In this document: positions 7,371 to 41,128 of the stretch, piece by piece
How the letters are laid out: every line of letters starts with the position of its first letter
Numbering within the stretch: position 1 is the first letter of the stretch
Assembly (NCBI GenBank): GCA_902563105.1
Contig: CACEVU010000002.1
Location: 1-64,000 of the forward strand
Length of the DNA stretch: 64,000 nt
Direction of reading: 5' to 3'
DNA from: an uncultured SAR86 cluster bacterium
GTDB taxonomy: Bacteria > Pseudomonadota > Gammaproteobacteria > Magnimaribacterales > AG-339-G14
Position numbers and translations under genes: made by a program
Notes under the pieces: generated by a model
Database searches by the model: none
What the model saw: the letters and a program-made list of their open reading frames with translations, nothing else
What the model was told of the DNA's origin: nothing

Positions 7371-8601
7371 TTTCCATTTTTTCAGCCAAAATTTCACCTG
7401 TTGCGGCTCCTAATGTCCAACCTAAATGGCCGTGTCCAGTATTGTAAAAAATTCCTTTCGCCTTGCTTTCGAATATGAGAGGCATCATATCGGGAGTCAT
7501 GGGTCTCAATCCAGCCCAAGGAGTATAGTTTTCAGTACTTACTGACGGGAAATATTCTCTTACCCAATTTAATAAAGGACGAATCCTGTCTTGTCTAATA
7601 TCTTTATTTTTACCAGCTAATTCTGCAGTTCCGGCTACTCTCAACCTATTACCTAATCTGCTAGAAACTATTTTTACTGGATCGTCTAAAAGAGAAACTT
7701 GAGGTGCTGCTTGTTGAGAGATCATATCATCCAAATAAATTGTTACGCTATAGCCTTTAACCGGATAAACCCTCATGCTATCGCCAAGTACATCTGCAAA
7801 CTTTTGTGTTTCAACACCTGCACAAACTGCCACTTTGTCAAAGACATATCCTCTAGTGCTAGCCTGATCGGTAGCTGACAAAATAACTTTATCTTGATCC
7901 TTATAAATGTTTTCTATTTCAGTATTGAAAAAAGTTTCAACTCCATACTTTTCTTCTAAAGTCTTGATCATATTTATACAAAATTTATGAATATCCCCGC
8001 TTGCATCGGATTTAGTATAAATCCCCCCAACTATTTTTTTTTGATTACTTGCAGACTTAAATGCCGGCTCTAAATCTTCAATTTCATCTAAAGTCAAAGC
8101 ATCCCATTCCATTCCCTCTTGATCTAACCATGAAGCTTTACTTGCTGCCGCGCTAAACTCTTTTTCATCATTGTAAAAATGGAGAATTCCTTTTTTTAAA
8201 AGATCAAACTCAATACCTTCTGAATCAGCAATTTTGAAATAGATTTCTCTAGCCCTCTTCGCCAATTCTATGGTCTTCTGAGTATTCGACTTATGTTTAC
8301 CGTTAAATGTAGCTAAAAGAAATCCCATCATCCATTTATATTTTTGAATGCTAGGGGATGGATTGAAAAGAAGCGGCGCATCTTTTTTAAACATCCACTT
8401 TATTCCATTGAGAATATTTTTCGTAGTATTCCAAGTCTCAGAATTACTTGCGCTAAGTTGGCCACCATTTGCATAACTTGTCGCCATTGCTGGATATCTC
8501 CTGGAATCTATCAATGTAACTCTATGGCCTTTTTTTGCTAGGGCATATGCAGTTGTTATGCCGGCAATACCGGCACCAATGATCGCTATATCATTCCTCA
8601 T
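7360..8601 (-). CDS. dadA: D-amino acid dehydrogenase small subunit (DadA-like FAD oxidoreductase)
   Basis: DadA oxidises D-amino acids, chiefly D-alanine, to 2-oxo acids and ammonia, passing electrons to the respiratory chain. The N-terminus carries a Rossmann FAD motif, IAIIGAGIAGITTAYALAKKGH, followed by DSRRYPAMATSYANGGQLS as in DadA. The C-terminal region has WAGLRPMTPDMMPLI and NTGHGHLGWTLGAATG, the second FAD contact. At 413 residues it is close to E. coli DadA (432). Its position ahead of ampD suggests use of D-alanine from wall turnover, which is inference. It starts inside the last codons of ispH (4-nt overlap). Confidence 0.88.
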   Translation of the reverse strand: MRNDIAIIGAGIAGITTAYALAKKGHRVTLIDSRRYPAMATSYANGGQLSASNSETWNTTKNILNGIKWMFKKDAPLLFNPSPSIQKYKWMMGFLLATFNGKHKSNTQKTIELAKRAREIYFKIADSEGIEFDLLKKGILHFYNDEKEFSAAASKASWLDQEGMEWDALTLDEIEDLEPAFKSASNQKKIVGGIYTKSDASGDIHKFCINMIKTLEEKYGVETFFNTEIENIYKDQDKVILSATDQASTRGYVFDKVAVCAGVETQKFADVLGDSMRVYPVKGYSVTIYLDDMISQQAAPQVSLLDDPVKIVSSRLGNRLRVAGTAELAGKNKDIRQDRIRPLLNWVREYFPSVSTENYTPWAGLRPMTPDMMPLIFESKAKGIFYNTGHGHLGWTLGAATGEILAEKMENDQ

Positions 8602-10041: not shown

Positions 10042-12781
10042 TTTCTAAACACCTGGTACAGATATGAGAATCCAAAAATTCCTTCAAATTACCAGTATGA
10101 TGCCAACAACGGTCGCATTTATCTTTTTTCGAAGGATAAACCTCAATTGAGAAATTAGTTTCGTTATCTTCACTGCTTATTTCAAGAGTCGCTGCAGAAA
10201 CAATTAAAAGAAATTTTAATTCATCTATGCAAGGACTTAATCGAAAGAAGGTTTCTGAATTACAAAATATTTTAACTTCTGCGTCTAATGAAGAACCTAT
10301 AACGCCATTGTTTCTTTTTTCCTCCAAAAGTTTATTAGCTTCAATTTTTATCTCGTTCAGAATATTCCAAGCTTCTTCGTCTAAAGTGAGGTCAAGCTCA
10401 CTTTTGAAAGAGGCAAAATTTTCCAGAAAGATAGATTTTTTGTCTTTATTTAGTTCTCTAAATGCTTCTTCTGCGGTAAAACTTAAAATAGGAGCTATCC
10501 ATAAAAGAAGTCTTTCAAGAATTTGTTTAATTGTAATTTGTGCTGAAACTCTCGCTGATCCGTCTTTTTTTGAGGTATAGAGCCTGTCTTTGATGATATC
10601 TAGATAAAAACTACCAAGTTCGTTACTACAAAAATTTAATATTTTTTGATACACCAAGTGGATCTCATAATTTGAATAATCTTCAATAATTTCAGCTTCA
10701 AGCTTTTCAGCTCTTTTAAGAATCCATAGGTCTATTTCAACTCTATCTTCATGAGTATTTAATTCATTTGGTGAATTAAAATCGTATAAATTTGATAACA
10801 AAAATCTTATGGTATTTCTAATTCTTCTATAAGAGTCAGAAGTCCGATCAAGAATTTCGTCAGAAAAATAGATCTCGTTTCTAAAATCAGAGGATGCAAC
10901 CCAAGCTCTGAGAATGTCAGCGCCTTTTTTGTTCCATACAGATTGAGGGGAGACCGTATTACCTAAAGACTTAGATTGCTTTTTTCCCTCGCCATCAACT
11001 ACAAAACCATGAGTAAGCACAGATCTGAAAGGAGCTTCGTTATTTATTGCCATGCCTGTTAAGAGGGAGGATTGAAACCAACCTCTATGTTGGTCAGAAC
11101 CTTCTAAATATAAATCTGCAGGATAAGATAAATTTCCCCTGTTTTCTAAAACACAATGATGAGTTACTCCAGAATCGAACCAAACATCAAGGATGTCTGT
11201 CGACTTTTCGTAGAGTTCGAAGTCTGCAATTAAAGATTCAGCTTTAAAATCATACCAAGCCTGTATGCCTACCTTTTCAACTTCTTTGGCAACTTTTTCA
11301 ATTATTTCTAAAGTATTGGGATGAAGCTCACCAGTTTCTTTCCTAGTAAATAGGGGCAAAGGCACACCCCATGATCTTTGTCTTGAAATACACCAGTCAG
11401 GTCTACCATGCATCATTCCTTCGATTCTTGATTTTCCCCATTCTGGAAGCCAATTAATTTCATTAATTTTTTCTTCTGCTTTTTGTAAAAGATCATTATT
11501 TTCCATAGAAATAAACCATTGCGGCGTTGCTCTAAAAAAGACAGGAATTTTATGACGCCAACAGTTTGGGTAACTATGTCTGTAAGTGCTCTTGCTCATC
11601 AAAAGAGATTTTTCGGATAGAATCTCTATCACTTTATTATTAGCATCTTCAAGATTTAATCCGCCTACAAATTCTTGGCTATCGTAAAATTCCCCTTTTT
11701 CGTCTACAGGACTAGAAAAATCTAAATCTTCACCTAAACACGCATGATAATCATCCATACCATGAGCTGGAGCCGTATGAACTAAACCTGATCCCATTTC
11801 CTCAGTAACGTGTGAGCCTGGAATAAAAACTGAATCTCTACCCAAAAAGGGATGCGAAGCCGAAAGACCAACTAATTCCTTTCCAGATTTAGCACCTAAG
11901 ACTTCATGATTGCTAATGCCTATTCTTTCAAAAGTTTTGTCCCTTAAAGTTTTTGCTATTAAGACAGATATTTTTTTATTTTCGTGCGAAATATTTATCA
12001 ATTCATATTCAAATGTTGGATTGATGCAAATTGCTTGATTGCTAGGGATTGTCCATGGAGTGGTTGTCCAAGATATAGCGTATGTTGGATAGGAAATATC
12101 TATCGAAAAAAGTTTTTCCACTCTTTTTTTATCTAAAGGAAAAAGAAAATCAATAGCTTTTGATTCTTTGTCGTAATACTCAATTTCGGCCTCTGCTAAC
12201 GCAGACTTGCACTCTGGACACCAGTGTACTGGTTTCTCCCCTCTCACTAGATGATCTTCTGCAATTATTTTTCCTAAAGCCCTCATGGTATTTGCTTCGA
12301 AATCGAATGACATAGTCTTATAAGGATTTTTCCAATCGGCTTGAACTCCAAGCCTTTTGAAATCGTTTCTTTGAATTGCAATTTGTTGATTGGCATATTC
12401 TCTGCATTCTTCTCTGAATTTATCTGCTTGGACCTCGACATTAACTTTTCCAATTTTCTTTTCCACATTCAATTCGATTGGAAGACCGTGACAATCCCAA
12501 CCAGGGATATAAGGAGAATTAAATCCTTGAAGTTGTTTAAATTTTATTATGATGTCTTTGAGAACCTTATTATTTGTAGTTCCCAAGTGAATTGGTCCAT
12601 TTGCGTAAGGTGGGCCATCGTGGAGCAAAAAATTTGGTCCATCACTGTTTTTATCCTGTAATAATTGGTATAAATTTATTTCTTCCCAATATTTAATTAT
12701 CTCTGGTTCTTTTTGAGCCAAGTTTGCTTTCATGGAAAAGCCTGTGTTAGGAAGATTTAATGTATCTTTAATTTTTTTCAT
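10004..12781 (-). CDS. ileS: Isoleucyl-tRNA synthetase
   Basis: IleRS charges tRNA-Ile and edits mis-activated valine. The 925-residue protein is full length. The class I signatures are clear: PPYANGPIHLG (HIGH) and KKQSKSLGN (KMSKS). The WTTTPWTIPSN segment marks the editing domain. A C-terminal zinc finger is present (CDRCWHHTG and CTRCLENV), as in bacterial-type IleRS. It sits in the standard ribF-ileS-lspA-ispH order, overlapping both ribF (14 nt) and lspA (38 nt). The peptidyl-prolyl isomerase gene fkpB, often found between lspA and ispH, is absent. Confidence 0.99.
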   Translation of the reverse strand: MKKIKDTLNLPNTGFSMKANLAQKEPEIIKYWEEINLYQLLQDKNSDGPNFLLHDGPPYANGPIHLGTTNNKVLKDIIIKFKQLQGFNSPYIPGWDCHGLPIELNVEKKIGKVNVEVQADKFREECREYANQQIAIQRNDFKRLGVQADWKNPYKTMSFDFEANTMRALGKIIAEDHLVRGEKPVHWCPECKSALAEAEIEYYDKESKAIDFLFPLDKKRVEKLFSIDISYPTYAISWTTTPWTIPSNQAICINPTFEYELINISHENKKISVLIAKTLRDKTFERIGISNHEVLGAKSGKELVGLSASHPFLGRDSVFIPGSHVTEEMGSGLVHTAPAHGMDDYHACLGEDLDFSSPVDEKGEFYDSQEFVGGLNLEDANNKVIEILSEKSLLMSKSTYRHSYPNCWRHKIPVFFRATPQWFISMENNDLLQKAEEKINEINWLPEWGKSRIEGMMHGRPDWCISRQRSWGVPLPLFTRKETGELHPNTLEIIEKVAKEVEKVGIQAWYDFKAESLIADFELYEKSTDILDVWFDSGVTHHCVLENRGNLSYPADLYLEGSDQHRGWFQSSLLTGMAINNEAPFRSVLTHGFVVDGEGKKQSKSLGNTVSPQSVWNKKGADILRAWVASSDFRNEIYFSDEILDRTSDSYRRIRNTIRFLLSNLYDFNSPNELNTHEDRVEIDLWILKRAEKLEAEIIEDYSNYEIHLVYQKILNFCSNELGSFYLDIIKDRLYTSKKDGSARVSAQITIKQILERLLLWIAPILSFTAEEAFRELNKDKKSIFLENFASFKSELDLTLDEEAWNILNEIKIEANKLLEEKRNNGVIGSSLDAEVKIFCNSETFFRLSPCIDELKFLLIVSAATLEISSEDNETNFSIEVYPSKKDKCDRCWHHTGNLKEFLDSHICTRCLENVEGEGEKRKFF

Positions 12782-35105: not shown

Positions 35106-35834
35106 TTATTTAGCTGACAGATCTTTCGCTAAGTTTTCTTCAAAATTAAAACTTTCTCCACAACCACATTCAGCTGACACATTAGGATTAATAAAAACCA
35201 ACTCCTGATTGAGGTTTTTTTTGATGAAATCAAGTTTTGTGCCTTTGAGAAAGATAAAGCTTTTGTCTTGAATAGAAAGATTTATACCATTGATTAGACC
35301 ATTAAAATCGTTTTTATCAATTTCTGATATCAAATCTAGTTTATATGCAAAACCTGAGCATCCTGAGTCTACCAACGAAATTTTTATGCCTTTTGAATTT
35401 CCTATTTCAATCATTGAAGAAAGATGATTGGCAGCATTATTTGAAATATCAAAATCCTTAGAAGAAATATCTTTATCTGAAGCTTTTGAGTTTTTTGGGT
35501 GATTTTCTGAAACCATATTTATTGTATATTTAGGTATTTCAATTTCTAAGTCAGAATCTTTAACAATAGTCTGACAACTAAGCCTAGATCTGGATTCTAA
35601 TCCCCATGCTTTGTCCAATAAATCTTCCTCATCATCTGTAGATTCGTTTAAGGAATCAAATCCTTCAGTGAAAATGACATGACATGTCGTACAAGCACAC
35701 GAAAGTTCGCAGGCATGTTCAATATCTATATCCTGATTAAGTAGGTTTTCACAAACAGACATGCCAGAGACTGCCTCAAACTCAGCACCATCTGGACATA
35801 AATCAACATGTGGTTTTACCTTTATTTTTGGCAT
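35106..35834 (-). CDS. Fused 2Fe-2S ferredoxin and IscA-type Fe-S carrier
   Basis: One 242-residue frame joins two isc proteins that are normally separate. Residues 1 to about 110 are an adrenodoxin-type [2Fe-2S] ferredoxin (Fdx), with cluster cysteines in ACELSCACTTC and RSRLSCQT. Residues about 128-238 are an A-type carrier (IscA/HesB), with the Cys ligands in VDSGCSGFAYKLD and AECGCGESF. A Ser/Lys/Asp-rich linker of about 20 residues joins them. Fdx supplies electrons to IscS/IscU and IscA carries clusters to targets, so fusion would couple the two. It overlaps iscU by one base (TGATG) and lies before iscX. No hscB or hscA lies between iscU and this gene. Confidence 0.93.
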   Translation of the reverse strand: MPKIKVKPHVDLCPDGAEFEAVSGMSVCENLLNQDIDIEHACELSCACTTCHVIFTEGFDSLNESTDDEEDLLDKAWGLESRSRLSCQTIVKDSDLEIEIPKYTINMVSENHPKNSKASDKDISSKDFDISNNAANHLSSMIEIGNSKGIKISLVDSGCSGFAYKLDLISEIDKNDFNGLINGINLSIQDKSFIFLKGTKLDFIKKNLNQELVFINPNVSAECGCGESFNFEENLAKDLSAK

Positions 35835-36256
35835 CAGTCATTGTTTCTTAGGCTTTTAAAATCATCAATGGCTCTGTGAATAGCCTCTTCAGCTAAAACG
35901 CTGCAGTGAATCTTAATAGCAGGTAATTCAAGGATGTCGACAATCTCTTGATTGGAAATTTTTTGTGCTTCCTCGAGTGTTTTTCCTTTTAGCATATCTA
36001 TTAATTCTCCACTAGATGCAATTGCTGAACCACAACCATAAGTTTTAAATTTTGCGTCAACGATTTTATTAGTACCATCTACATTCTCACATTTAATTTG
36101 AAGTTTCATGACGTCTCCGCAAGCAGGAGCGCCAACAATACCAGTTCCAACCCTGTGGAAATCTTTATCACCTGGTTTCCATCTACCTACGCTAGCTCCC
36201 TCAGGATTTTTGAGTGTTTCTTCGAATTTATCTACTACTTTCTGTGAATAAGCCAT
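35834..36256 (-). CDS. iscU: Iron-sulfur cluster scaffold IscU
   Basis: IscU is the scaffold on which IscS-derived sulfur and iron are built into clusters. The three cluster cysteines are in GAPACGDVMKLQI, TYGCGSAIASS and IHCSVLAEEAIHRAI, and the conserved Asp is in ACGD. At 140 residues it is slightly longer than E. coli IscU (128). The HscA recognition motif LPPVK appears here as LPAIK, in line with the absence of hscA nearby. It lies 27 nt after iscS. Confidence 0.97.
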   Translation of the reverse strand: MAYSQKVVDKFEETLKNPEGASVGRWKPGDKDFHRVGTGIVGAPACGDVMKLQIKCENVDGTNKIVDAKFKTYGCGSAIASSGELIDMLKGKTLEEAQKISNQEIVDILELPAIKIHCSVLAEEAIHRAIDDFKSLRNND

Positions 36257-36283: not shown

Positions 36284-37708
36284 TTATGCCCAAACTATTT
36301 TATCTAAATCTATTCCGTCTTGATACATTTCCCACAAAGGAGAAATCTCTCTCAGTCTATTTACTGAATCCTTTACTAAATTTACAGTTTCTCTAACTTC
36401 TTCTTCGCGTGTAAATCTTCCGAATGAAAATCTTATCGAGCTGTGAGCCAGTTCGTCTTTTCTACCGAGAGCCCTCAAGACATATGAAGGTTCAAGACTT
36501 GCAGAAGTGCAAGCAGAACCAGATGAAACTGCGATGTTCTTCAAAGCCATAATCAAGGACTCTCCTTCAACAAAGTTAAATGACATATTAAATATGCCTG
36601 GAAAAGAATTATCTTGGGCCCCGTTTACGTAAACTTCTTCCATATCCTTTAAGCCGTTCCAAAGAATATCTCTATACTTTGAAAGGTTAGAGTAATCTTC
36701 GTCCATTTTTTCTTTAGCGAGCTTAAAAGCCTCACCCATCCCAACAATTTGATGTGTAGGAAGCGTACCTGCTCTAATGCCTCTTTCTTGTCCGCCTCCG
36801 TGGAACAACGGCTGAAGTCTAACTCTGGGTTTTCTTCTTATATAAAGCGCGCCTATACCCTTTGGCCCATATATTTTATGAGCTGAAAATGACATTAAAT
36901 CTACATCAAGATCCGTTAAGTCGATTTGAATTTTACCTGCACTTTGTGCAGCATCAACGTGAAAAATAATTCCATTTTCTCTTGTAATCTTTCCTATTGA
37001 ACGGATATCGTTAATAACTCCGATCTCGTTGTTTATATGCATAAGTGATACAAGGACAGTGTCTTCGCGAATCGCTTCTTGAACAGCCTCTGGCGTTATC
37101 AAGCCATTTTTGTTTGGTTCTAGATAAGTAACCTCGTAAGATTCATTTTCTAGTTGACGGCAAACGTCTAAAACAGCCTTGTGTTCTATTTTAGAAGTAA
37201 TGATATGTTTTCCTTTTTTTGAATAGAAATATGAAGCGCCTTTGATTGCTAAATTATCTGATTCTGTAGCTCCAGAAGTCCAGATGATCTCTCTCGGATC
37301 ACAATTTAGTAAGTTAGAAACATTTGAACGTGCTTCTTCGACAAGTTCTTCTGCTTTCCAGCCATAGATATGAGATCTGGATCCAGAATTTCCGAAAGCA
37401 CCTTCAAATGATAAACACTCTTTCATTTTATCAATTACCCTTTCGTCCACTGGAGTTGTAGATGCATAATCAAAATAAGTTGTTTTTCTGGGTAGAATAG
37501 ATTTTATATTTGAGCTCTCAGGGCTTCCTTCAGAAAAATTAGATTTAAGATCATTTAAAATAATGTCTCTTTTCAAAAGAGCTTTATCAAGGGTCTTTTC
37601 CCCAGTGGATTTTCTTAGATCGAAGCCAAGTTTGTCCCTTAAATGTAAAGGTACAGCTAATTTCACCCACCAAACGTTGTTTCTTTTAAATAAATATTTC
37701 TTGTCCAT
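36284..37708 (-). CDS. iscS: Cysteine desulfurase IscS with N-terminal recombinase-like extension
   Basis: IscS takes sulfur from cysteine with PLP and feeds Fe-S cluster and tRNA thiolation pathways. The IscS body starts near residue 75 ([19 protein letters not shown]). The PLP Lys lies in [12 protein letters not shown], the active Cys in [14 protein letters not shown], and the tail [18 protein letters not shown] is the IscU-binding end. The first 60 or so residues are foreign to Isc[21 protein letters not shown] and the [17 protein letters not shown] stretch resemble the N-terminal DUF6538 segment of tyrosine recombinases. No ATG, GTG or TTG was found close to the IscS body, so the extension is probably translated. 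The start is the ATG at 37708; a TTG at 37729 is in frame. iscR is not upstream. Confidence 0.93.
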
Positions 37709-37719
37709 TTTCTTTAAAT

Positions 37720-37751
37720 TGTACCACAATTTACTGATAAATTAAGGTACA
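37720..37751. promoter_or_regulatory. 32-bp inverted repeat just upstream of iscS
   Basis: Two 14-nt arms (37720-37733 and 37738-37751) pair at 12 of 14 positions around a 4-nt centre; the outer six, TGTACC/GGTACA, match fully. It lies 12 nt before the iscS ATG and overlaps TACAAT, a possible -10 box (37717-37722 on the minus strand). It could be an operator or a 5' hairpin. The half-sites CCACA and TAAGG recall the IscR type 2 site, but the spacing (14 instead of 7) is wrong. Confidence 0.55.
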
Positions 37752-37948: not shown

Positions 37949-39337
37949 TCAAGCCCAGATTTCGTCATCTGTAGGTACTTTCTTATCAGAAATAACCTTG
38001 CCAATTCTAGATACATTCATAAGATGCTTATAATCCAAGTTCTCAGAAATCGAGTTTCCTCCCCAAGAACCACAACCAAGTGTAGTTGTTGGAGCAAAGC
38101 CATTTGTAAGAGAGCCGCCTGCTGAAGTAGAACTTGGTTGGTTTATAACAAGTCGACTAATAGGTAATTCCAACCCTGCTTTTTGAATATTTTGATCATT
38201 GTTAGAGTGTAATGCTGCAGAATGACCCGCTCCTTCTACAAGAAGGTTTGCTTTAGCCATTTTAACTGCGTCCTCAAAAGTAGAGTAAGGAACAATTGCT
38301 ATCACAGGACAAAGCTTTTCTTTTGCAAGAACATCTTCAGTACCAGATCCGTCGGCTGGTAAAAGTATTAGTCTTGATGAATCAGGAATTTCAATGCCTG
38401 CTAATTCACCTACGTAACTAGCAGATTTACCAACGATATCTTTGTTCAAGTTCCCGTCCAGAAAAACAACTTCACGTAGCTTTTGTATTTTATCTTGATC
38501 ATTTGTGAACCAGACTTTCCCAGTGTTAGTAAATAATTCAATTGTTTCGTCAAAGTTTTCTTCTGGAGCAAATACAAATTGTTCATGAGAACAAATAATT
38601 CCATGATCGAATGATGCTCCGTCGACTATTTTTTCAATAGCTTCTTTTAAATCTATGTTTCTATCTATTATTACTGGAACATTTCCTGCCCCAACTCCAA
38701 AAGAGGGTTTACCTGAAGAGTATGCGGACTTAACCATAGCCCCTCCTCCGGTTGCAACAACTACATCTGCTGATTGCATAAGTTCTTGAGTCTTTTCAAC
38801 GGATCCATTTGTAACAACTTGAATAAGATCATCTGGACCGTTATGAGATTTAACAATTTTCATAAATTCTTTTGTCAAATATTCAGCGCAGTTTTGAGCC
38901 TTAGGATGAGATGCAAAAATTACTGCATTGCCAGTCTTTAGAGCAAACATGCCATTACACATTGGAGTAACAATAGGATTTGTTACAGGAGTTACTGCAG
39001 CAACTACTCCCATGGGCTTAGCAACAAAAACAAGATTACTGTCCCTATCTTCACCGATTACTCCTCGAGACTTCTTACCTTTTAAATTATTCCAAATGAC
39101 ACGTGCTTTACTTTTGTTTTTCAAGATTTTGTCTTCATAGGAACCCATTTCTGTCTCATCAACAGCCATTCTCGAAAGTGGTTCAGCATTATCGTAAACA
39201 AATTTGCCAATATCGCGAACAACCGCATCTACTTTTTCTTGTGTGAAAGATTCAAAATTTTTTTGAGCTATACGTGCTTTTCTTACTAGCTCTTGAACTG
39301 ATACATCTATAGAGTCAGATGACTTTACCTTGGTCAT
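37949..39337 (-). CDS. Acylating aldehyde dehydrogenase (acetaldehyde/sulfoacetaldehyde dehydrogenase-like)
   Basis: This CoA-acylating aldehyde dehydrogenase turns an aldehyde, NAD(P)+ and CoA into an acyl-CoA. Cofactor and substrate segments are AVTPVTNPIVTPMCNG, VIFASHPKAQNCA and SFGVGAGNVPVIID. The catalytic Cys is in DHGIICSHEQFVFA, the pattern of the AdhE-N/SauS/EutE group rather than of hydrolytic enzymes. The 462-residue length fits SauS-type sulfoacetaldehyde dehydrogenases and related acetylating enzymes, and sequence alone does not decide the substrate. The start has a strong AAAAAGGAGC site, with a TATAAT about 45 nt upstream. A ThDP enzyme gene lies upstream on the same strand. 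Confidence 0.82.
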   Translation of the reverse strand: MTKVKSSDSIDVSVQELVRKARIAQKNFESFTQEKVDAVVRDIGKFVYDNAEPLSRMAVDETEMGSYEDKILKNKSKARVIWNNLKGKKSRGVIGEDRDSNLVFVAKPMGVVAAVTPVTNPIVTPMCNGMFALKTGNAVIFASHPKAQNCAEYLTKEFMKIVKSHNGPDDLIQVVTNGSVEKTQELMQSADVVVATGGGAMVKSAYSSGKPSFGVGAGNVPVIIDRNIDLKEAIEKIVDGASFDHGIICSHEQFVFAPEENFDETIELFTNTGKVWFTNDQDKIQKLREVVFLDGNLNKDIVGKSASYVGELAGIEIPDSSRLILLPADGSGTEDVLAKEKLCPVIAIVPYSTFEDAVKMAKANLLVEGAGHSAALHSNNDQNIQKAGLELPISRLVINQPSSTSAGGSLTNGFAPTTTLGCGSWGGNSISENLDYKHLMNVSRIGKVISDKKVPTDDEIWA

Positions 39338-39457
39338 TGTTTTGCTCCTTTTTTAATAAGCTTAACTTCTAATTATTATATTCTAGACCAAGTTATCTAT
39401 ACTTTTAATATTTTTTATTTAGATAATTTATAAATAATGACAGAATCGAAATGCGAT

Positions 39458-41128
39458 TTATAATTTAGAACTAATTCTTTTTAAATCTTTATTTAAGATT
39501 TTATCGTTTTCGCTATAATCAACAGGACAATCTATTAAATGGACTCCCGAAGTATCCAAGCATTTTTCTAAAGTATTTTTAAGTTGTTTTGAATCATCTA
39601 TTCGATAACCTTTTGCGCCATATGCATCTGCATACTTAACAAAATCTGGATTTTCAAAACTCAATCCAAAATCAGAAAATTTCATATTTTCCTGTTTCCA
39701 CTTTACCATCCCATAAGCTTTATCATTTAAGATTATGACTGTGAGATTGACGCCCAATCTTACTGCTGTTTCCAACTCTTGACTGTTCATCATAAAACCT
39801 CCATCTCCGCAGACAGATATTACTTTTTTATCTGGGTAAATCATTGCTGCTGTTATAGCTGACGGGAGACCAGCTCCCATACTTGCAAGAGCATTATCTA
39901 AAATAACGGTATTTTGTTCTAATGCTGGATAACCTCTCGCAAACCAAAGTTTATAAACTCCATTATCCAAAGTAATTATTCCATCATCTGGCATGACATT
40001 TCTTATTTGGCGAACCAAATAAGGTGGGAAAATGGGAAATCTGTCATCTTCTCTTATTTTTTCAGAATGTTCCAGGTGGGCCTGTCTTGTAAGAAGCATT
40101 TTTGAAAAATCCCAATGAGCCTGAACTTTAATTTTTTCTTTTATCTGCCAAATAGCGTTTGCTATGTCGCCGGTGACCATCAATTGAGGAAAGTAAATTC
40201 CGTTAACATTAGCAGCTATATGATCAATATGAATTACCTTTGTCCCTTCTTTTTCGCTCATTATAAAAGGTGGTTTTTCAAAGTTTTCTTGACCAACTGT
40301 GACTATCTGATCTGATTCTTCTAGAGCTCTATGAACAAAGTCTCCATTTGTTAGAGCAGCACATCCAAGAAAGTTTTGGTGTCTCTCATTGAGGGCTCCC
40401 TTTCCAAGTTGAGTAGTTATAAATGGAATTTTTGTCTTTTCGACAAACTCTAAAAGCATTTTGCTCGTGCTTGTTCTATTTGCCCCACCGCCCAAGACTA
40501 AAATGGGTCTCTTAGCTTTTTCTATTAAATCTACAGCTTGATTAATTGATTTTTCATCAGGTATTGGTCTACGGATGATGCTTTTCAATAAAGGTTTTCT
40601 TCTTGTTACCTCACTTGCAATATCTTCAGGAAGTTCAAGATGCACAGCTCCTGGTCTCTCTTCTTCTGCTAGTCTGAAGGCTTCCCTTACTTCAGGTGCA
40701 ATCATATTTGCAGAAGATATTTGATGAGTATATTTTGTAATTGGCTGCATGAGATCTACAACATCTAAAATTTGAAATTTTCCTTGTTTTGTATTTTTTA
40801 TGGGTTTCTGTCCTGTAATCATGACCAAAGGCATTCCGCCTAATTGAGCATAAGCTGCAGAAGTAACCAAATTTGTTGCCCCCGGACCGAGGGTGGTTAA
40901 GCATACGCCAGCTTTTCCTGTAAGTCTTCCGTAAGTAGCTGCCATAAATCCAGCTCCTTGCTCATGCCTTGTAAGAATTAATTTAATTTTATTTGACTTG
41001 CAAAGACATTCAAGAAAATCGAGATTCTCCTCGCCAGGAAGTCCAAAAACAAATTCGACTCCTTCTTCTTCCAGGCATTTAATAAAAAGTTCGGCTCCTT
41101 TAATTTTTTTACTATCAAAAATACTCAT
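39458..41128 (-). CDS. Acetolactate synthase-like ThDP-dependent enzyme
   Basis: This 556-residue thiamine diphosphate enzyme has the three-domain pattern of the acetolactate synthase group. The N-terminus GVEFVFGLPGEENLDF resembles catabolic AlsS-type enzymes. The ThDP-activating Glu lies in LTRHEQGAGFMAATYGRL, and the ThDP/Mg site is GDGGFMMNSQELETAV...LNDKAYG. No small regulatory subunit gene is adjacent, which also fits a catabolic or side-function enzyme. Related enzymes include sulfoacetaldehyde acetyltransferase and glyoxylate carboligase, so the product is uncertain. It starts with no gap after the purC stop (TAAATG), so it is probably co-transcribed with dapA-bamC-purC. Confidence 0.8.
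   Translation of the reverse strand: MSIFDSKKIKGAELFIKCLEEEGVEFVFGLPGEENLDFLECLCKSNKIKLILTRHEQGAGFMAATYGRLTGKAGVCLTTLGPGATNLVTSAAYAQLGGMPLVMITGQKPIKNTKQGKFQILDVVDLMQPITKYTHQISSANMIAPEVREAFRLAEEERPGAVHLELPEDIASEVTRRKPLLKSIIRRPIPDEKSINQAVDLIEKAKRPILVLGGGANRTSTSKMLLEFVEKTKIPFITTQLGKGALNERHQNFLGCAALTNGDFVHRALEESDQIVTVGQENFEKPPFIMSEKEGTKVIHIDHIAANVNGIYFPQLMVTGDIANAIWQIKEKIKVQAHWDFSKMLLTRQAHLEHSEKIREDDRFPIFPPYLVRQIRNVMPDDGIITLDNGVYKLWFARGYPALEQNTVILDNALASMGAGLPSAITAAMIYPDKKVISVCGDGGFMMNSQELETAVRLGVNLTVIILNDKAYGMVKWKQENMKFSDFGLSFENPDFVKYADAYGAKGYRIDDSKQLKNTLEKCLDTSGVHLIDCPVDYSENDKILNKDLKRISSKL

Follow-up and report, generated by a model that had tools for sequence, protein, structure and literature searches.

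A palindrome upstream of iscS in a SAR86 bacterium as a probable isc operator bound by an integrase-type domain of IscS itself

Results

The window, by which we mean the whole 64,000-nucleotide stretch of SAR86 DNA that was analysed, carries an isc operon on its minus strand. The iscS gene encodes a protein of 474 residues with an N-terminal extension of about 75 residues that is related to DUF6538, a domain found at the N terminus of tyrosine integrases. Pfam, a predicted structure and a profile alignment place this DUF6538-like N-domain at residues 1 to 62 (positions 37523 to 37708, minus strand; Pfam match at residues 5 to 58). The IscS core follows at positions 36284 to 37486 (minus strand; residues 75 to 474 plus the stop codon) and scored 679.5 bits against TIGR02006 over residues 77 to 474, above the equivalog cut-off of 643.2, so that by this measure an intact enzyme is present in the same chain as the N-domain. 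Next in the operon come iscU (35834 to 36256, minus strand, by sequence likeness) and a ferredoxin-IscA fusion gene (35106 to 35834, minus strand, by sequence and profile matches), and the window's list of open reading frames shows no hscB- or hscA-like frame between the isc genes. Ferredoxin and IscA, which form one fused gene here, are separate genes at two of the other loci that we collected (L037 and L044).

The N-domain of the window matched DUF6538 (PF20172) with 18.5 bits and an E value of 0.0016, which is under the Pfam gathering cut-off of 27. Its closest relatives scored over that cut-off at seven loci (L037, L130, L134, L136, L137, L138, and L142) and under it at one (L032), and hhalign gave a probability of 96.9% for the alignment of a profile of the SAR86 and Woeseiaceae domains to five integrase-type N-domains. 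By way of these relatives, the N-domain appears to be homologous to DUF6538. Its structure was modeled with a pLDDT of 80.7 and a b-b-a-b-a fold. Comparison of the model with known structures gave 3rmp_C (Z 3.7, rmsd 2.9, 50 residues aligned) and 7wq5_A and 6sy0_B (both Z 3.5); similarity to AP2 domains and to an integrase domain that binds attP was weak and tied with that to unrelated structures, which reached a Z of up to 4.9. Foldseek returned nothing at an E value of 0.001 or lower and no integrase among the best 50 matches listed, while a sequence search of the PDB gave a best E value of 0.58, to stomatin. Scans of IMG/VR for viral relatives of the domain found none, and an 81-residue protein of genome G199 had no relative besides itself in 77 genomes. 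Our literature search found no mention of DUF6538, nor did the titles and opening lines of abstracts report a DUF6538-IscS fusion.

Upstream of iscS lies an inverted repeat at positions 37720 to 37751, with arms at 37720 to 37733 and 37738 to 37751 that are complementary at 12 of 14 positions around a 4-nt loop. Its minus-strand sequence is TGTACCTTAATTTATCAGTAAATTGTGGTACA, which reads TGTACC-N20-GGTACA. The palindrome thus exists where the original prediction had placed it, with the same arms, but 11 nt (37709 to 37719) rather than 12 separate it from the iscS ATG at 37708, a start codon supported by homology. The predicted overlap with a possible -10 box was likewise seen: a minus-strand TACAAT with TGG ahead of it (37718 to 37723), read from the sequence, overlaps the right arm. 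A sigma-70 consensus scan requiring 9 of 12 matches reported no promoter at this box. No terminator was found between 37500 and 38000.

Inverted repeats of this quality occurred 12 times in the window, and seven of them, at four distinct places, had at least three G-C pairs. The same search returned 4, 2, 6, and 3 matches in four Markov sequences (0, 1, 2, and 3 with the G-C pairs). Because repeats this good are near chance in such AT-rich DNA, we rejected the palindrome as an oddity in itself. What exceeds chance is its outer pair of hexamers: TGTACC-N17-24-GGTACA occurs once in the 1.2-Mb assembly, at the palindrome, while lone TGTACC or GGTACA words are fairly common (18 in the window versus 8.5 expected). 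The upstream half-site, TGTACCTTA (37743 to 37751, minus strand), lies in the -35 region; the consensus of 51 sites is TGTACC(T/A)T(A/T). The downstream half-site, GTGGTACA (37720 to 37727, minus strand), is the window's sole copy of this word, which is also the word repeated ahead of DUF6538 integrase genes.

A search for a genome-wide regulon gave a negative outcome, with TGTACCTTA at four places in the assembly (genome G000) versus 12 for a reversed control pattern; the other three places all lie within open frames. The lack of a second full copy had been named in advance as evidence against an operator, yet a single full site is compatible with a local autoregulator.

A possible, weak third site is a TGTACC in the coding sequence of the N-domain (37650 to 37655, minus strand; Ala-Val-Pro codons). 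The word recurs within the domain at 11 of the 13 loci with an IscS fusion (including L003, L004, L005, L007, L097, L102, and L103), in several of them doubled in tandem, and could be an internal operator. Its presence is fairly likely from codon use alone, however: among 38 Val-Pro pairs in the window's long frames, 5 yield TGTACC.

The domain has two homes in the SAR86 family of the window. It was present as a single copy in 35 of 40 genomes, on IscS in 12 (state F) and on a GltD-like protein in 23 (state U); the assemblies of the five genomes without it are 60 to 76% complete. Many of the 61 genomes that we searched have an IscS without the N-domain, and the domain instead begins the divergent gene just upstream, which encodes a GltD-like FAD/4Fe-4S protein of about 670 residues and heads an operon that also includes KorA- and KorB-like genes. 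In this 61-genome set, KorA was found in 21 of 21 U genomes versus 0 of 12 F genomes, and an acetolactate-synthase-like gene in 12 of 12 F versus 0 of 21 U genomes at an E value of 1e-150 or lower. A published SAR86 comparison describes 2-oxoglutarate:ferredoxin oxidoreductases in two of four families, and its available excerpts leave the F state unmentioned (PMC11582366).

The F-state gene set in the window includes a CoA-acylating-type aldehyde dehydrogenase (37949 to 39337, minus strand) and the acetolactate-synthase-like TPP enzyme (39458 to 41128, minus strand), both assigned by sequence and profile matches. 2-Oxoglutarate dehydrogenase E1 was found in 0 of 37 genomes of the window's family, 0 of 8 of family f2, and all 16 of families f3 and f4 (one under the cut-off), which leaves the F genomes without both this enzyme and KorA (0 of 12). 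Judging by their sequences, the enzymes encoded at 37949 to 41128 may supply an alternative route from 2-oxoglutarate to succinyl-CoA. One f2 genome (G055, locus L089) has both KorA and the acetolactate-synthase-like gene and is perhaps an intermediate in the exchange of gene sets.

In a tree of IscS cores, which took in 35 of 37 sequences, the F state was scattered over several groups, and the core of the window was sister to those of eight U genomes of its own genus (support 100/99). This distribution points to switching between the two states or to their horizontal exchange.

Both hexamers are exact at 13 of 13 F loci, 20 to 22 bp apart and 8 to 12 nt before the ATG, while the sequence between them varies. 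The pattern listing behind the GTGGTACA count in the window recovered 12 of these 13 loci and missed L117. The ends of the palindrome are therefore conserved among close relatives and the middle is not; a lack of conservation, the main observation named in advance as refuting, was not seen. The conserved parts are TGTACC and GGTACA, and the suggested likeness of CCACA and TAAGG to IscR type 2 half-sites finds no support.

This pattern bears on the alternative of a 5' hairpin, raised in the original prediction, which in the iscS mRNA would act on translation or stability. The single sequence does fold at -11.1 kcal/mol (z -2.25; 4 of 200 shuffles as good), and the inner arms pair at 6 of 8 positions in 6 of the 13 F loci. 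The other seven loci, however, pair at only 3 to 5 of 8, close to the shuffled mean of about 3, and the spacing of the arms varies by 2 bp. Moreover, no known RNA family in Rfam matched between 37400 and 38000, U genomes retain the hexamers without such a palindrome ahead of iscS, and a transcript from the overlapping -10 box would start downstream of the palindrome. We therefore regard a hairpin as very unlikely.

U genomes carry at least three TGTACC or GGTACA sites between the divergent gene and iscS at 20 of 20 loci (19 in the window's family and one in f2), with spacing and orientation that differ from those of the F state. We collected 43 loci from named genomes, mostly SAR86 with three from Woeseiaceae. 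Every one of the 43 has two or more sites in the 300 bp that precede the start of the domain, and the density is 10.6 per kb near it versus 0.23 per kb farther away. Among 16 of these loci, chosen by lineage, the site was the top 6-mer in every one (51 occurrences versus 0.83 expected). In domain-free controls, the 400 bp ahead of iscR contained no site in any of five f3 genomes, and an 11-kb region surrounding isc was equally free of them in one f4 genome; these sister-family controls leave out L048 and L092 (both from G059), which the motif search missed, and L074, for which no sequence was listed.

Since -10-like TACAAT lies within GGTACAAT, one could read TGTACC and GGTACAAT as mere core promoter elements. 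We give almost no weight to this reading: the sites occur in several copies, in either orientation and even at a distance from probable -10 boxes, and are absent at the isc genes of families that lack the domain.

KorA (POR domains) is the fusion partner at two of the three Woeseiaceae loci, and the contig of the third ends too early to tell. A further genome of the same class, G229, also has a domain-KorA fusion, with two sites about 170 to 270 bp upstream. No isc genes were seen beside L138 or G229, where Kor and other genes lie instead, indicating that the sites travel with the domain and not with isc. They accompany it over three enzyme partners (IscS, the GltD-like protein, and KorA) and from 31 to 62% G+C. 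Two contigs titled Flavobacteriaceae (L097) and Cytophagales (L136) bear domain fusions resembling those of SAR86, along with these sites, and are possibly misbinned.

The original prediction had envisaged an unknown Fe-S regulator and had overlooked the DNA-binding-type domain fused to IscS, which is the most likely regulator. A transcription factor encoded elsewhere could still bind the sites while the domain is otherwise employed, for example in protein contacts, and binding by the domain itself is a prediction. This alternative seems unlikely to us, given that the sites accompany the domain on each of its three partners in SAR86 and Woeseiaceae and that a closely similar word precedes many DUF6538 integrase genes of other bacteria.

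DUF6538 is rare in the class, being present in 6 of 274 genomes. A phage integrase domain accompanies DUF6538 over the Pfam cut-off at L147, L148, and L158 and under it at L154, L155, and L156. Two copies of GTGGTACA, spaced 13 bp apart, directly precede the start in an Aeromonas record (L154) and in Methylobacterium (L155), with looser versions elsewhere. In a shuffle test of 18 loci, for which the word was chosen after some of them had been viewed and which include one that is not clearly an integrase (L164), 10 reached the floor (p = 0.002) and 13 had a p of <0.03; the GTGGTACA pair was not significant at five integrase-type loci (L149, L153, L161, L162, and L165). A lag of 13 was the best self-match in 9 of the 18 and tied in three more.

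Eight of the 15 integrase-type loci that were scanned are preceded by a tRNA gene. At L145, pairs of GGGGTACA with a 13-bp period (7444 to 7462 and 12068 to 12086) bound a stretch of about 4.6 kb that begins with a short DUF6538 frame adjoining a tRNA-Leu gene; they look like the att ends of an island that retains part of an integrase.

The presence of a similar word beside tRNA-linked integrases, together with two alternative gene sets at the locus and the scatter of the F state on the IscS tree, would also suit recombination sites or att relics that mediate exchange of the gene sets flanking iscS. We consider this highly improbable, as Pfam reported no integrase catalytic domain in the fusion and relics are unlikely to stay exact at 43 of 43 loci while the intervening sequence drifts.

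Rrf2/IscR was found in 0 of 37 genomes of the window's family, including that of the window (assembly 93.9% complete), and in 12 of 24 other genomes (5 of 8 in f2, 7 of 8 in f3, and 0 of 8 in f4). In these 12 genomes, which belong to two sister families, the gene lies just upstream of iscS. Control of the window's isc genes by IscR or another Rrf2 protein was accordingly rejected. The absence of the regulator across the family, together with the ends of the palindrome being kept in close relatives, favors the earlier suggestion of an operator that stands in for IscR control.

Discussion

We consider it likely that the palindrome is an isc operator bound by the DUF6538-like domain fused to IscS, and that IscS thereby controls its own operon as a trigger enzyme. 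The domain would recognize TGTACC/GTGGTACA, and the IscS dimer would present two domains to the two inverted half-sites, 26 bp apart. The downstream half-site overlaps TACAAT and the -35 region contains the upstream half-site, so a protein occupying the two would mask the promoter and act as a repressor of the operon. The direction of control is a guess, and activation may apply instead, above all in U genomes. Transcription would start about 7 nt past the -10 box, giving a leader of a few nucleotides and leaving the palindrome untranscribed. Occupancy could track the working state of IscS and so feed back on the demand for Fe-S clusters. To our knowledge, a cysteine desulfurase that binds its own promoter would be without precedent.

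Several observations count against this interpretation. The half-sites are inverted and 26 to 28 bp apart at F loci but tandem and 13 bp apart before integrase genes, five of the 18 integrase-type loci lack a significant GTGGTACA pair, the sites of U genomes differ in spacing and orientation, the Pfam score of the N-domain is under the cut-off, the fold match is weak, and the promoter scan missed the -10 box.

The 5' end of an integrase gene of the tRNA-targeted kind may be the source of both operator and domain. They would at first have headed a Kor operon, which in the ancestor of two SAR86 families came to lie divergent to isc; one family would then have lost IscR, and where Kor was lost, the domain would have been retained through fusion to IscS. 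Such retention suggests that the needed role of the domain had become control of isc. We lean slightly toward the broader view of a portable self-regulation module, in which the 5' end of an integrase gene was grafted onto operon-leading genes and passed among KorA, the GltD-like protein, and IscS, so that each came to regulate itself, and in which it replaced IscR in one SAR86 family and was captured by IscS where Kor was lost.

If correct, our interpretation offers a testable candidate answer to how Fe-S assembly is controlled in streamlined ocean bacteria without IscR, and it puts forward a target word in DNA, as well as a role, for a domain of unknown function. It also describes a route by which an operator-plus-domain of a mobile element could be domesticated and handed between enzymes.

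Compared with known systems, the locus resembles IscR-controlled isc in that an Fe-S assembly operon is concerned and IscR lies upstream in sister families, but differs in the absence of the regulator from the window's family. With DUF6538 integrases it shares a related N-domain and a GTGGTACA-like word close ahead of the start codon, whereas those proteins have a catalytic domain and 13-bp tandem repeats in place of inverted half-sites. In PutA-type trigger enzymes, a DNA-binding domain in the enzyme's own chain acts on the enzyme's own operon; PutA itself has a ribbon-helix-helix domain and works on proline. The IscS of the window similarly unites an enzyme and a DNA-binding-type domain in one chain, with its own operon as the predicted target, but the domain is of integrase type. 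Excerpts of a study of the KplE1 prophage integrase IntS describe how it binds an arm-type site beside the -10 box of the promoter from which it is expressed and lowers its own expression (PMC2951348). As far as those excerpts go, IntS is the closest tested precedent for an integrase-type domain acting at its own promoter, the difference being that IntS is a working integrase, while in the window a metabolic enzyme carries the proposed N-domain.
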